A stretch of 64,000 nt of DNA, from positions 1-64,000 of the forward strand of contig JADFSS010000001.1 in NCBI GenBank assembly GCA_022560655.1, in the 5' to 3' direction. The notes under the pieces are model-generated. The model made no database searches. It worked only from the letters and a program-made list of their open reading frames with translations, and was not told where the DNA came from. Below, piece by piece: positions 4,809 to 15,097 of this stretch (position 1 is its first letter; every line of letters begins with the position of its first letter). Source of the DNA: Candidatus Neomarinimicrobiota bacterium. GTDB taxonomy: Bacteria; Fidelibacterota; Marinisomatia; SCGC-AAA003-L08; TS1B11. Made by a program: the position numbers and the translations under genes.

Positions 4809-6656
4809 CTAGAAAGTATGCAGGAATGCCAATTGGTAAGTGGGTATGAGTGCAGACAGGCTAGCCTCTTCAAAGGCTGTAGACAGGCGAGCGTCTTGAA
4901 AGGCTGCATCCATGCGGATGGGACCCAGTGGCGTCGAGATCAGTAGCCCGATGCCAAAATCCCAACCGGTAATCCAATGCTGGGCGGGCCGCTCTGCATC
5001 ATAGCCTCGGTCCCTGTCGGTGAGGAAAACGCGCAGAGCACCTCCATCCAGAAATAACTCACCGCCGATGACCCAGAACAGCGGTATGCGCAACTCGATG
5101 TTAGCCAGCACCTTGGCGGTGCCACCTACTTTGGAAAACTTACCCGGGTCCAGCCAGCCCCTCAAGGAAGTGCTGCCACCCAGTTCAAACAGGTGGTAAC
5201 GTTTCAGGCTCAACGAACTGCCCAACGGCCAGGCTTCCAATATGCTGAACTTGAATCGATACGCAAGCACGGCAGGTCGAAAAATGGGGCGGTAGCGCCG
5301 GAAGTCAACTTCCAGCTTGGCAAACCCATCTACCTCGTCAAGAAATGTGCCATGGATTGACGGCAGCAGCTGAAAGACGGTCCCCCGGCGCGGAGCCAGC
5401 AGATTGTCCACGCCCCGGTAGCGATAATCTACTTTCAACCGCGGCTCGGCACCCTGCACAGTTTCATCGGGCAAATCACCACTGGCTTTGATAAAGACCC
5501 ATCCGAACGCACCACGTAGCTGGGCCTTTTCCAGGCGCTTAGAGACAAATGACAGTTCAATGCCGCTCTGCCACAGGGTAGGTCCCTGACTCGCGCGATA
5601 GTCGGAAAAAAACCGTAGTGAAGTAGGTATGCGCAGACCGAGAGTCCACGGCGTAATAATGTCCCACGCCAGCAAGAAATTGGGCTTCCCGATATTTTCG
5701 AGAGTGAGATCGCCTTCGACTGTCAGCCCGGTTCGCACGCTCGAATTGAGCACCCGCGCGCGCCAGAACTGAACCGAACTGTACAGCGCTGTGTTAGGTT
5801 CGCCTTCCCCCGGTGGCTTGGTCTGGCGGAATCCGAGGCTCAAATCAACACTGCGCCGCTTGAGTTCACGAATCCGAATTTCCAGATCGGCGACACCGGG
5901 ACCGGAGGCCCGGAGTGTGGGGATGATTTCGACGGCACCGAACATCCCTGACTCAAATATTCGCCGCTGGCTAAGGAGAAGTTTGCTGCGGTTAAATGTG
6001 TCGCCATACTCGAACAGCAGTTCGCGCCTGACCGTCCACTCAGGCACATGGGTCAGCCCCCGGATGGTCACGTCGCCAACTGAATAGGTCAGTCCCTCGG
6101 ATATGGTGAGGCGCAGGCGAATGCCATCCTCAATCTCGATCTCTTCCAGGATATCGACCGCCAGCTTGCCCTGATTCTGGTAATGATGGCGCAGGTCTTC
6201 CAGCCGGTTTCTAAGCACCACGGGGTTGTACGGCTCGCCTAATTGCACTCCCAAGAAATTGATAATTTCCTCACGGGTCATGTGCCGATTGCCGGCTATG
6301 GATATAGCGGTCAAATTGTATTGACGCCCCCGATCTATTGTTTGGATAACCTCCACGCGCCCATCGGGCAATACTGTAAACGAATCGGCTACCTGGGCCT
6401 CCAGATAGCCCCGGCTGACGAAGAAATTCCTGAGGGTGATGGCATCAACTTTGAGTGCCCGGCGGCTGAACGGCGTGCTACCCAGGCCAAATATGGAGGG
6501 CGTTTTCAACTTCATCAAGCCCATCAGTTGCCGCTGATCAGCAAATGAGAGACTGTCACGCAGGGTGATTTTTGCGATGGGCAAGCCGTCAACCTGGCCC
6601 GCCAATCCCACAGCGAGGGTCAGTAGGATTAGCGCTAGCCGTGGTATACGAGTCAT
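4809..6656 (-). CDS. tamA: Omp85/BamA-superfamily outer-membrane protein, TamA-like
   Basis: A 615-residue Omp85 protein from the ATG at 6656, with a signal peptide (about 1-24), about three POTRA domains (roughly 25-260, for example ISIAGNRHMTREEIINFLG) and a C-terminal 16-strand-type barrel. The loop-6 signature GGSTSLRGW is present and the protein ends in phenylalanine, as outer-membrane barrels do. It follows tamB by about 20 nt, so I call it the TamA partner of the translocation and assembly module rather than the general BamA, although the sequence alone does not fully separate the two. It is the last gene of the tamB-tamA unit; a 222-nt gap follows. Confidence 0.83.
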   Translation of the reverse strand: MTRIPRLALILLTLAVGLAGQVDGLPIAKITLRDSLSFADQRQLMGLMKLKTPSIFGLGSTPFSRRALKVDAITLRNFFVSRGYLEAQVADSFTVLPDGRVEVIQTIDRGRQYNLTAISIAGNRHMTREEIINFLGVQLGEPYNPVVLRNRLEDLRHHYQNQGKLAVDILEEIEIEDGIRLRLTISEGLTYSVGDVTIRGLTHVPEWTVRRELLFEYGDTFNRSKLLLSQRRIFESGMFGAVEIIPTLRASGPGVADLEIRIRELKRRSVDLSLGFRQTKPPGEGEPNTALYSSVQFWRARVLNSSVRTGLTVEGDLTLENIGKPNFLLAWDIITPWTLGLRIPTSLRFFSDYRASQGPTLWQSGIELSFVSKRLEKAQLRGAFGWVFIKASGDLPDETVQGAEPRLKVDYRYRGVDNLLAPRRGTVFQLLPSIHGTFLDEVDGFAKLEVDFRRYRPIFRPAVLAYRFKFSILEAWPLGSSLSLKRYHLFELGGSTSLRGWLDPGKFSKVGGTAKVLANIELRIPLFWVIGGELFLDGGALRVFLTDRDRGYDAERPAQHWITGWDFGIGLLISTPLGPIRMDAAFQDARLSTAFEEASLSALIPTYQLAFLHTF

Positions 6657-10587: not shown

Positions 10588-12495
10588 TTACTTCTTCTCG
10601 TCGACTACTTCAAAATCGGCGTCTTCAATCTCGCCATCCTCCACACTCTGACCCTTTGCAGAACTACTGTCCTGGCCTTCAGGCGTGGGCGTATCCTTGG
10701 CATCGGCATACATCTGTGTGGCCAACTCGGACCAGATGCGATTGACCCCGTCAACTGCATCCTGAATATCCTTGGCGTTGGAGCCGACATTGGCAGTCTT
10801 GAGCTTTTCCAACTCACTGTCAAGCTTGGATTTATCATCCTCAGATAACTTGTCGCCAAACTCCTTGACCTGCTGCTCCGTCTGGTGGATGAGCTGATCA
10901 GCCATGTTGTGCAGCTCAACCTCCTCACGTTTACGTTTATCCTCCTCGGAATTGGTCTGCGCGTCACGACGCATGCGCTCAATTTCCTGTTCGGTCAGAC
11001 CGCTGGATGCTTCGATACGGATGCTCTGCTCTTTGCCAGTAGCCTTGTCCTTGGCAGCCACATGGAGAATCCCGTTGGCATCAATGTCGAAGCTGACCTC
11101 GATCTGCGGAATGCCTCTGGGCGCCGGCGGGATACTGTCCAGGTGGAAACGGCCAATGGTCCTGTTGTCAACGGCCATGGGCCTCTCGCCCTGCAGTATG
11201 TGGATCTCAACCGATGGCTGGTTGTCCGATGCCGTTGAAAAACTCTGGCTCTTTTGGGTAGGGATCGTGGTATTGGCGTCAATCAGATTGGTCATGACCC
11301 CACCCAGGGTTTCGATGCCCAGCGAGAGAGGAGTTACATCCAGGAGCAGGACGTCTTCCACGTCTCCAGCCAGTACGCCGCCCTGTATCGCTGCGCCAAT
11401 GGCTACGACCTCATCAGGGTTCACCCCCTTGTGGGGCTCCTTGCCGAATAAATCCTGAACGATCTGCTGCACTTTGGGTATACGCGTACTGCCTCCCACC
11501 AGAATAACTTCGTCCACATCGGAGGGCTTCATCTTGGCGTCCTTCAAGGCCTGGATACAGGGTTCCTTCAGTCGCTGAAAGAGCTCTGCTGTAAGGGTCT
11601 CGAACTTGGCGCGGGTAAGCTGGATGGTCAGGTGCTTTGGTCCCGACGCATCAGCAGTAATAAACGGCAGGTTCACGTCTGTCTGGAGCGCGCTGGAAAG
11701 CTCCATCTTCGCTTTTTCGGCCCCCTCTTTGAGCCGCTGGAGGGCCATGGGGTCCTCCCGCAGGTCGATCCCCTCATTCTTTTTAAACTCATCGGCCATC
11801 CATTCTATGAGCACCTGATCAATATCATCGCCACCCAAGTGTGTATCCCCGTTCGTGGACTTCACCTCGAATACACCTTCCCCTAGTTCCAGGATAGAGA
11901 CATCGAAGGTGCCCCCGCCGAAATCAAAGACTGCAATTTTTTCATCCTTCTTCTTGTCCAGACCGTAGGCCAGAGCGGCGGCCGTTGGCTCATTGATAAT
12001 GCGCTTGACATTCAATCCGGCTATCTTGCCCGCATCCTTGGTAGCCTGGCGCTGAGAGTCGTTAAAGTAGGCGGGTACCGTAATCACGGCATCGGTGACC
12101 TTGGCGCCAAGGTAGGATTCGGCATTCTGCTTAATTTTTTGAAGAATCATGGCACTGATTTCCGGAGGCGAATAAGTTTTCTTGCCCACCTTAACCTGAA
12201 CGGCACCCTTGGGTCCCTTGATTACCTCGTACGGAACTTCATGCCTCTCCTGCTCTACCTCGTCGTACGTGCGCCCCATGAATCGCTTGATAGAATAGAT
12301 CGTGTTTTCTGGATTCGTTACCGCCTGTCGTTTGGCGGGCTGGCCGATGAGCCGGTCATCGGTCTTCGTGAAAGCTACCATAGAGGGTGTGGTGCGGCCA
12401 CCTTCAGCATTTTGTATCACCGTGGGCGTTCCACCCTCCATCACGGCCAAGCAAGAGTTGGTCGTTCCCAGGTCGATGCCAATAATTTTTCCCAT
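10588..12495 (-). CDS. dnaK: Molecular chaperone DnaK (Hsp70)
   Basis: Full-length DnaK of 635 residues: N-terminal ATPase domain opening [15 protein letters not shown], the phosphate-binding motif [19 protein letters not shown], the linker [19 protein letters not shown], the substrate-binding domain and the C-terminal lid with an acidic tail (FEVVDEKK). It is a cytosolic ATP-dependent folding chaperone. The ATG at 12495 has AAGGAGG seven bases upstream. It stands alone between clpC and tamB without grpE or dnaJ, has its own leader containing a long inverted repeat, and is closed by an intrinsic terminator, which together suggest a separately controlled heat-shock gene. Confidence 0.98.
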
Positions 12496-12541
12496 CTCAA
12501 TCCTCCTTCGGGGTTACCCCTCTCATTACAATAATGATGCC

Positions 12542-12579
12542 TGATCGAGAAGTATGACGAAATGTCATGCTTCCGATCA
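12542..12579 (-). promoter_or_regulatory. Long inverted repeat in dnaK leader
   Basis: Two 16-bp arms (left 12542-12547 plus 12549-12558; right 12564-12579) flank a 5-nt loop, with one bulged base (12548) and one mismatch. The inner half pairs GAAGTATGAC with GTCATGCTTC and the outer half TGATCG with CGATCA. It ends 46 nt before the dnaK ATG and is not followed by a T-tract in either direction, so it is not a normal terminator. It does not match the CIRCE (HrcA) or HAIR (HspR) consensus. It could be an operator or an RNA element controlling dnaK. Confidence 0.6.
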
Positions 12580-12589
12580 CTGGCAGGTA

Positions 12590-12617
12590 ATTATGTCTGT
12601 CCTGGGAGCTGGGTCAG
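12590..12617 (-). promoter_or_regulatory. Possible sigma70-type promoter for dnaK
   Basis: On the minus strand CTGACC (plus 12612-12617) and CATAAT (plus 12590-12595) are separated by 16 bp, a fair match to -35 and -10 boxes. Transcription would then start close to the edge of the inverted repeat at 12542-12579, placing the repeat at the very 5' end of the dnaK transcript. The match is by eye and weak at the -35 box. Confidence 0.35.
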
Positions 12618-15097
12618 GTTGCAGGCGGGCCCTGTTCGGACTCCTCTGCGAGGGTGATGTCCGAGTCGTTGGTATCGGCCAACTTCTGGGTGAAGAAAAG
12701 ATTCTTGCCACGGGCGCTGATGTGAATGTGTCCGCCCTCAACAAACTCCTTGGTGAGGAACTTCTCGGCGATCACATTTTCAATTATGTCCTGAATAACT
12801 CGGCGCATGGGCCGCGCGCCAGACGATTTGGTGTATCCCGCTTGAATTATCCGCTCTTTAGCGGCCTTGGTCAATGTACAGGTAACCCGCTTGCTGGCCA
12901 AATTCTTGTACAGATCCTGCAGCTGCAGGTCAACAATCTGATAGAGGTCCTCCTTGGTCAAGGAATTGAACACGACGATCTCATCAAGTCGATTAAGGAA
13001 TTCGGGATTGAACAGGCGCTTCACCTCCACCATGATATCCGCGTGTATCTTCTCATCCGATTTTTCGTCGCCGGAGGCAAAACCGTAGCCACCGCTTTCC
13101 ATACCGCGAGTCCCCAGATTGGAGGTCATTATGATGACGGTATTGCGGAAATCGACCCGACGGCCCAGACCATCTGTAAGGAAGCCATCATCGAAGATTT
13201 GAAGAAGAATATTAAACACATCCGGGTGCGCCTTTTCAATTTCATCAAAGAGCACCACGCCGAACGGATTGCGTCTTACCCGTTCCGTCAGCTCGCCACC
13301 TTCCTCGTAGCCAACATACCCCGGCGGTGCACCCACTAGGCGGGAAACATTGAAGCGCTCCACATACTCGGACATATCAAACTTGATGAGGGCCTCATCG
13401 TGGTTGAACATGTGCCGCGCGAGCACCCTGGCCAGTTCCGTCTTGCCCACACCCGTCGGGCCCAGGAAAATGAATGTCCCGATAGGATGGCGGGGATCCT
13501 TAAGCCCTGTGCGGGCTCGCTGGATGGCCCGGCCAAGGGTCTTGACGGCTGCTTCCTGCCCAATGACATACTCCTGAAGCACATCACCGATATGCAGAAG
13601 CTTGTCCATCTCCTTCTCAGCAACCCTGCTGACGGGAATTCCGGTCATCATGGCCACGGTATCGGCGATGTCGTTCTCCTGCACCGTGGGCCAGTCCTGG
13701 CTTTCGTCCTCCTCCCACTGACGCTGCAAATGCTCAATTTTCTCAAGTAGTTGCCGCTCCCTGTCCCGCAGTTTGGCAGCCTGCTCAAAATCTTGTTGAG
13801 ATACAACCTGTTCTTTTTGCTTCCGAATGCCGTCAACTTCCTCCTCAAGCGAGAGAAGTTCCTGAGGCACCACCAGATTATTGATGTGAACCCTGGCGCC
13901 GGCCTCATCCAATACATCTATGGCCTTGTCGGGCATGAACTTGTCGGTTATATAGCGATGACTGAGTTCAACGCAGGCTTCAATGGCATCGTCAGAATAG
14001 TTGACATGGTGATGTTGCTCATACCTTTCTTTCAACCCCTGCAATATGAGCTTGCAGTCGTCCAATCCTGGGGGTAATACCATGATTTTCTGGAAGCGCC
14101 GCTCCAGCGCACCGTCCTTCTCAACGTAGCGCCGGTACTCGTCAAGAGTCGTGGCGCCAATAATCTGAATCTCACCCCGGGAAAGCGCCGGCTTGAACAT
14201 GTTAGCTGCGTCCAGCGATCCGCTGGCGCTGCCCGCGCCCACGATAGTGTGGAGCTCATCAATAAACAAAATAATATCCTTGGCCTCTTCCAGCTCGTGC
14301 ATTAGGGACTTGAGCCGCTCTTCAAATTGGCCGCGATATTTGGTACCGGCCACTAGCGCGCCCAGATCGAGGGCCAGCACCCTCTGGGCATACAGGACGC
14401 GAGGCACTTTGCGCTCGATGATCCTGGTCGCCAGTCCCTCAACGATCGCCGTTTTCCCCACGCCAGGCTCACCGATAAGGACCGGATTATTTTTCTTACG
14501 TCGGGCCAGGATTTGGGCCACCCGCTCGATTTCCTGCACTCTGCCGATCACCGGGTCGAGGGCCGAGGCCGTGGCCATTTCGGTGATATCGCGGCTGAAA
14601 TGATCGAGGGTTGGCGTTGTTGACTTTTTCGCCTTGCGGGACGGTTTCCTTAGCTGGGCCGTGGATTGCATCTGAACCAGGACTCGCTGCTTGATGGAAG
14701 CATAGTCGATACCAAAGCGAATCAGAATCTCGCTGGCCACACCCTCGGTTTCCTTGGCGATGGCCAGCAGCAGGTGAGTGTCATCACCCAGCTCCTGGTT
14801 GAAGCCCCGCGCTTCGGAGAAAGTGGTGCGCAAAATCCGCTCCGCCCGCCGGGTTAGAGGGAGATGTCCCAGCGCCATGGTTCCGCCGGAGGAGCGCACC
14901 ATATCCTCAATCTCCGCGCGCAGCTCCGTGATGTCGCCTGCCAAAGCCGTCAGAATGTCGTAAGCGGCGCCGCCACCCTCCTTGATAATGCCCAGCAAGA
15001 GGTGCTCGGAACCGACGTAACTGTGCCCCAAGCGAATAGCTTCCTCCTTGGCGCTCTTGAGGACATTTTGGACTCGTTTGGAGAAATTTTCTTTCAT
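12614..15097 (-). CDS. clpC: ATP-dependent Clp protease ATP-binding subunit ClpC
   Basis: Class I Clp/Hsp100 ATPase of 827 residues: duplicated Clp-N repeats (about 1-145), first AAA+ module with Walker A GEPGVGKT, a UVR-containing middle domain (LRDRERQLLEKIEHLQ), second AAA+ module with Walker A GPTGVGKT, and a ClpB-D2-type C-terminus. The UVR motif and short middle domain identify ClpC rather than ClpB. It unfolds proteins for ClpP. The ATG at 15097 lies 30 nt after the lolD stop; no mcsA/mcsB/ctsR genes of the Firmicutes clpC operon are present. It is the last gene before the dnaK leader, so the two stress genes are neighbours. Confidence 0.95.
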   Translation of the reverse strand: MKENFSKRVQNVLKSAKEEAIRLGHSYVGSEHLLLGIIKEGGGAAYDILTALAGDITELRAEIEDMVRSSGGTMALGHLPLTRRAERILRTTFSEARGFNQELGDDTHLLLAIAKETEGVASEILIRFGIDYASIKQRVLVQMQSTAQLRKPSRKAKKSTTPTLDHFSRDITEMATASALDPVIGRVQEIERVAQILARRKKNNPVLIGEPGVGKTAIVEGLATRIIERKVPRVLYAQRVLALDLGALVAGTKYRGQFEERLKSLMHELEEAKDIILFIDELHTIVGAGSASGSLDAANMFKPALSRGEIQIIGATTLDEYRRYVEKDGALERRFQKIMVLPPGLDDCKLILQGLKERYEQHHHVNYSDDAIEACVELSHRYITDKFMPDKAIDVLDEAGARVHINNLVVPQELLSLEEEVDGIRKQKEQVVSQQDFEQAAKLRDRERQLLEKIEHLQRQWEEDESQDWPTVQENDIADTVAMMTGIPVSRVAEKEMDKLLHIGDVLQEYVIGQEAAVKTLGRAIQRARTGLKDPRHPIGTFIFLGPTGVGKTELARVLARHMFNHDEALIKFDMSEYVERFNVSRLVGAPPGYVGYEEGGELTERVRRNPFGVVLFDEIEKAHPDVFNILLQIFDDGFLTDGLGRRVDFRNTVIIMTSNLGTRGMESGGYGFASGDEKSDEKIHADIMVEVKRLFNPEFLNRLDEIVVFNSLTKEDLYQIVDLQLQDLYKNLASKRVTCTLTKAAKERIIQAGYTKSSGARPMRRVIQDIIENVIAEKFLTKEFVEGGHIHISARGKNLFFTQKLADTNDSDITLAEESEQGPPAT

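Follow-up and report, generated by a model that had tools for sequence, protein, structure and literature searches.

A palindromic core and a sigma-54-type promoter in front of dnaK in a Neomarinimicrobiota genome: a putative heat-shock control circuit

The clpC-dnaK intergenic region

The window, i.e. the whole stretch of 64,000 nucleotides that was analysed, carries on its minus strand dnaK (Hsp70, 635 aa; 10588-12495), assigned from its open reading frame and domains, and its upstream neighbour, a gene for a clpC-type AAA+ ATPase of 827 aa (12614-15097). This gene pair is kept in relatives. The 118-bp gap between the two genes holds an inverted repeat at 12542-12579 whose plus strand reads TGATCG-A-GAAG-T-ATGAC / GAAAT / GTCAT-G-CTTC-CGATCA. 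The arms, of 17 and 16 nt, form 15 Watson-Crick pairs with one T·G mismatch, one bulged A and a 5-nt loop (GAAAT); the long, bulged and mismatched repeat that an earlier note had described at this place is therefore present. It was left out by the general repeat search because of its bulge.

A 51-nt RNA including the repeat folds at -23.5 kcal/mol (z -5.25) on the strand of dnaK and at -28.2 kcal/mol (z -7.79) on the opposite strand, and none of 200 shuffles folded as well on either strand. Rarity by folding energy alone was not borne out, since thousands of 51-nt places in the same genome reach -22 to -23.5 kcal/mol. Hairpins were then counted by structure (at least 15 Watson-Crick pairs, a loop of 3-8 nt, at most one mismatch and one bulge) over 2,154,253 of the 2,333,463 bases of the genome (92%): nine were found, including the repeat itself, versus three in a shuffled copy.

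A number of known element types were compared with the repeat and rejected. An intrinsic terminator of clpC, with a GC-rich stem followed by a T-tract, was not found in 12300-12800, in agreement with the lack of a T-tract mentioned in the earlier note, and no known Rfam RNA matched at E values up to 5 among 4227 families. The HAIR operator of HspR (CTTGAGT-N7-ACTCAAG) is absent from the letters at 12542-12579, as compared by eye, and the CIRCE operator of HrcA (TTAGCACTC-N9-GAGTGCTAA) has its sole match in 2.15 Mb before groES (contig C65, 5329) and none at the repeat; the dissimilarity to both operators claimed previously is hence upheld. A dispersed repeat was ruled out by a half-site search allowing up to 3 mismatches, which returned 39 matches versus 30 in the control, the best other match (C46:3549) lying within a coding frame. 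The half-sites that the earlier note had proposed as a query for other heat-shock genes are accordingly not repeated as such.

A conserved core and a -24/-12 element

Comparison of dnaK leaders and the composite searches described below point to a shorter dyad inside the repeat, TGACA-TTT-CGTCA (12555-12567, minus strand), as a proposed upstream activator site. It is followed after 13 nt by GGCAT-N5-TTGT, which belongs to GGCATCATTATTGT (12528-12541, minus strand), a sigma-54-type -24/-12 promoter element of dnaK (GG-N10-GT) recognized by its spacing and by its conservation among leaders. This element has the TGGCAY-N5-TTGC-like make-up of sigma-54 promoters, with GG and G(C) 10 nt apart, its last base being T and not C. 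The -24 base is 12540 and transcription is predicted to start at about 12516 on the minus strand, a position obtained by counting 12 nt from the -12 base. The predicted leader is 21 nt long, with AAGGAGG before the ATG. The full repeat would lie at about -26 to -63 relative to this start, i.e. outside the predicted transcript, which suggests control at the DNA level.

In the dnaK leaders of relatives with the clpC-dnaK pair, inspected by eye, the arms vary and TGNCA-N3-NGNCA mostly stays, while GGCAY-N5-TTGY stands 13-14 nt past the core at the spacing of a sigma-54 promoter. All 37 dnaK leaders from loci with clpC contain GGHA-N6-TTG, versus 1.9% of shuffles, and 30 of the 37 contain the TTGY form, versus 1.0%. 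The genes of this set were chosen without use of the pattern (L042, which duplicates L003, was left out; the clpC gene of L056, a KSB1 MAG, is not adjacent). A stricter dyad-plus-promoter pattern was found in none of 5150 shuffles; the window itself was left out by this pattern because its core has C at position 9. The family consensus of the core is approximately CTGNCA-WWW-NGNCAG. Of the 44 aligned rows, 38 were kept for position counts after dropping 6 non-heat-shock or unknown ones, and a signal is visible even at positions not fixed by the search pattern: positions 7-8 are A/T in 38/38, position 3 is never G, position 11 is never C and the left neighbour of the core is C in 66%. Judged from these leaders, conservation extends over the 13-bp core and the -24/-12 element 13-14 nt away, and not over the 16-bp arms.

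Some features count against this assignment. The -12 box of the family is mostly TTGT instead of the canonical TTGC and is not TTGY in 7 of the 37 leaders; the core of the window lacks the flanking C/G and displays CG where most relatives have TG or AG. 

A -24/-12 pattern is also present in 16 of 63 leaders from dnaK loci without clpC, e.g. TGGCACGGGCATTGC in a Verrucomicrobia MAG, and TTGC is present in the leaders of several more distant relatives.

Several other leaders deserve mention. Two or three tandem CTGCCA-N3-NGNCAG sites are located upstream of dnaK in L073, L110 and L118. The PVC-group dnaK leaders of L077, L079, L087 and L093 (dnaK start at about 4001) contain near-perfect sigma-54 promoters with other upstream letters, e.g. 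GCGACA, which hints at another activator in that group. In genome G010 (L004), the dnaK leader is a run of N exactly at the position of the site.

Recurrence in relatives and in other phyla

The composite of core and promoter was searched as TGNCA-N4-GNCN-N13/14-GGYAY-N5-TTGY in 60 related genomes, and 36 matches were obtained versus 1 in reversed controls (19 versus 0 at a spacing of 13 nt, 17 versus 1 at 14 nt). The downstream gene is dnaK in 22 cases, one of them being the window, groES in 7, lon in 1, and another gene or none in 6. Both the recurrence of the composite sequence and its strong bias towards heat-shock genes are observed directly. Counting against generality, the strict composite is confined to 16 and 14 of the 60 genomes in the two spacing searches.

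A second pattern gave 11 matches in 149 genomes of the same phylum (control 1), located before dnaK (8), hsp20 (1), efp (1) and no gene (1). The composite yielded 3 matches in 148 Bacteroidota genomes (control 1), two before hsp20 and one before a gene with an hsp90-like N-terminus, which we take to be HtpG, and 2 matches in 19 genomes of other phyla (control 0), both before dnaK in Gemmatimonadota or a MAG of like letters. In 150 genomes of Gemmatimonadota, the phylum of L118, there were 15 matches (control 0), counted as a sequence pattern only; in 4 of these, the promoter letters are the same as in the dnaK leader of L110. The low numbers in Bacteroidota (3/148) and other phyla (2/19) would reflect either a patchy regulon or too strict a pattern. 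In one relative, a composite stands 186 nt before the gene of elongation factor P (L340, 1501-1543), and may be a regulon member or a chance occurrence.

Within the genome of the window (92% covered), a dyad with at least 4 of 5 pairs and a -24/-12 element no more than 150 nt apart occur together at four places, versus none in the reversed control: before dnaK, hsp20 and lon (genes assigned by Pfam), and at C2:56320 without a recognized gene. Two dyad sites accompany the near-perfect TGGCACGGCCCTTGCGT of hsp20, whose promoter letters are TGGCACG-N4-TTGC. The distance from site to promoter at hsp20 and lon is 52-74 nt, varied as that of an enhancer may be. As expected of the upstream activator site of an enhancer-binding protein (EBP), the dyad is found upstream of a -24/-12 element, at a flexible distance, and recurs in a regulon. 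The refuting condition set by the earlier note, a lack of conservation among close relatives and at further stress genes of the genome, was checked with the opposite outcome for the core: it recurs at dnaK of relatives and, within the same genome, at hsp20 and lon. The 16-bp arms are not conserved.

The fourth place is a strong composite, TGCCAGGACGGCAG ... TGGCACGGATGTTGC (L147 16294-16334; C2:56294-56334), with nearly the same spacing as at dnaK. Only a 207-aa open reading frame without a Pfam match is present 174 nt downstream, and the composite maybe serves a small RNA or an unknown stress gene.

Sigma-54, a candidate activator and HrcA

An rpoN gene encoding all three Pfam domains of sigma-54 (RpoN) is present in the genome at C8:25779-27164. 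It stands shortly upstream of a gene pair resembling, by eye, hslV-hslU (L162 5779-10206; C8:25779-30206), and it looks like sigma-54 and a stress protease share one neighbourhood. RpoN was found in 50 of the 60 genomes and EBPs in 58. The 10 genomes in which RpoN was not found include 5 of the 10 single-EBP carriers of the composite mentioned below (G019, G024, G025, G036 and G037), absences that perhaps stem from the incompleteness of these MAGs (72-90%).

A sigma-54 promoter needs an enhancer-binding ATPase in order to work, and EBP genes are present: there are three in the genome. The natural candidate is a 402-aa EBP (C44:10091-11299), hereafter the C44 EBP, whose AAA+ domain starts without any N-terminal sensor domain (residues 14-180) and is followed by a lid; a linker of some 95 residues then leads to a Fis-type HTH (356-397). 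The next gene belongs to the LptE family (lptE). The HTH is nearly invariant across 15 aligned relatives (SERTLYRK), and for none of the 25 NCBIfam families listed did the protein reach the cut-off. A single EBP was detected at E 1e-30 in 33 of the 60 genomes, of the 399-427 aa type wherever the length is listed and uncut, and 10 of these 33 genomes carry a composite before dnaK or groES. The two other EBPs of the genome are longer and count against the proposed role of the C44 EBP.

An HrcA gene is also present in the genome (C52:5251), together with a perfect CIRCE (L298, contig C65, 5329-5355) before groES (4891-5175, minus strand). The dnaK and groES operons of this genome hence seem, from their upstream elements, to be split between two heat-shock systems. 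HrcA was found in 24 of the 60 genomes and is absent from 36. HrcA is missing wherever a composite precedes groES (7 of 7; chance 0.02, uncorrected for kinship), and dnaK composites occur both with and without HrcA (11 of the 22 with it), so that sigma-54 control appears to be older or more widespread at dnaK. According to this distribution, groES may join sigma-54 control once HrcA is gone.

Proposed circuit and alternative explanations

We propose, with a probability of about 0.74, that the core is an EBP site which together with a sigma-54 promoter drives dnaK, within a heat-shock regulon operating beside HrcA/CIRCE. The circuit can be briefly summarized as follows. Upon protein-folding stress an EBP, most likely the C44 protein, would assemble on the palindromic core 13 bp upstream of the -24/-12 promoter of dnaK, and its ATPase would open the promoter complex of the RpoN-containing RNA polymerase. 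In this genome hsp20 and lon would come under the same control, and groES would be left to HrcA/CIRCE. The sensorless EBP could learn of the stress through a chaperone restraining its linker, a guess made by analogy with PspA-PspF. Binding of the core by the C44 EBP, a start near 12516 and heat as the signal are what we infer from the genomes.

The balance tips slightly in favour of a wider proposal, in which a sigma-54 heat-shock regulon (dnaK, groES, hsp20, lon, htpG) would be common to Neomarinimicrobiota, Bacteroidota and Gemmatimonadota, with one sensorless lptE-adjacent EBP reading CTGNCA-N3-TGNCAG and taking over groES where HrcA was lost.

Binding of an EBP does not by itself account for the outer arms, which are longer than a Fis-type HTH needs. 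They may have arisen by chance, may form a cruciform or may give a multimeric EBP a second point of contact. A chance hairpin around the conserved core, with functionless long arms, is a real possibility falling short of even odds and is compatible with an EBP site. It would fit the three such hairpins of the shuffled genome versus nine real ones, as well as arm letters that are species-specific and not common to relatives; L133 and L014, however, have extended arms too, made of other letters. In the 44 rows, the flanks next to the core reached a complementarity of 150 versus 120.6 (sd 8.2) with right flanks re-dealt, attained in 1 of 2000 trials, which is no true probability as the rows are mutually related. 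The same complementarity and the stable fold would suit an RNA structure in a clpC-dnaK read-through transcript, acting as a thermometer, processing site or attenuator. Such a role appears highly improbable: the repeat lies upstream of the predicted start, with AAGGAGG about 33 nt away, a T-tract is lacking, the strand opposite to dnaK pairs better, the outer arms are weak or absent in many relatives, and a dyad core at varying distance is also found before hsp20, lon and groES. The temperature-sensing 5' RNA suggested in the earlier note would be disfavoured for the first of these reasons, the predicted start being downstream of the whole repeat; a thermometer would hide the ribosome-binding site, and the arms pair with each other and not with AAGGAGG.

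The earlier note had also suggested the operator of an unknown repressor. Heat would then free the repressor from a site by a Bacteroidota-type promoter of the housekeeping sigma factor; promoters of this type read TTTG ... TAnnTTTG. The -12 box TTGT in place of TTGC and letters such as TATTCTTG, which resemble TAnnTTTG, speak for this alternative, and the fixed spacing of 13-14 nt at dnaK would suit a repressor. It is nonetheless unlikely, although less so than the RNA structure, since all 37 leaders have GG at -24, spaced as for sigma-54, TTGC is found at hsp20 of the same genome and in the distant relatives mentioned above, the site distance varies at other genes, and T at position 6 (37%) and position 10 (45%) lends little support to TAnnTTTG. 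As a sigma-54 promoter is inactive without its ATPase, an activator site is the simplest reading of the palindrome: the previous idea of a palindrome regulating a stress gene is retained, and the repressor gives way to a proposed activator.

Bacterial heat-shock control is usually told as sigma-32 or as repression by HrcA, HspR or CtsR. The elements assembled here suggest a control circuit of a kind little described. If true, large phyla with mostly uncultured members would control their main chaperone genes through a sigma-54 switch powered by ATP. The letters of the site and the candidate activator are directly testable in culturable Bacteroidota, and offer a route to stress regulons in uncultured genomes.

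Comparison with known systems

The general idea of sigma-54 at chaperone genes is already in print: an in silico survey (PMC12316311) reports, in the part of its text available to us, that -24/-12 promoters are enriched at the chaperone genes groES/EL, ibpA/hsp20, grpE, dnaJ and dnaK of Bacteroidota and Planctomycetota. In that part, neither an activator site nor an activator protein is named and Marinimicrobia are absent. Searches of the open-access literature returned no mention of the activator site or the candidate EBP, nor of the parts that concern Neomarinimicrobiota and Gemmatimonadota.

In a known AtoC-activated system, a sigma-54 promoter feeds dnaK as proposed here; the activator is AtoC, however, and rpoN falls on heat shock. 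HrcA/CIRCE resembles the present case as a palindrome before a chaperone gene, but the letters differ and CIRCE marks groES in this genome. HsfA, which acts on lonD of Myxococcus, is an NtrC-class activator of a stress protease gene, as the C44 EBP would be for lon; HsfA has a receiver domain whereas the C44 EBP has no sensor domain. PspF, the phage-shock EBP, is held by PspA and consists of AAA+ and HTH without an N-terminal sensor domain. The C44 EBP has the same sensorless composition and a proposed role in stress response, but its match to the PspF family of NCBIfam is far below the cut-off, and it differs by its long linker between AAA+ and HTH, by its proposed targets, chaperones and a protease, and by lptE as the next gene.
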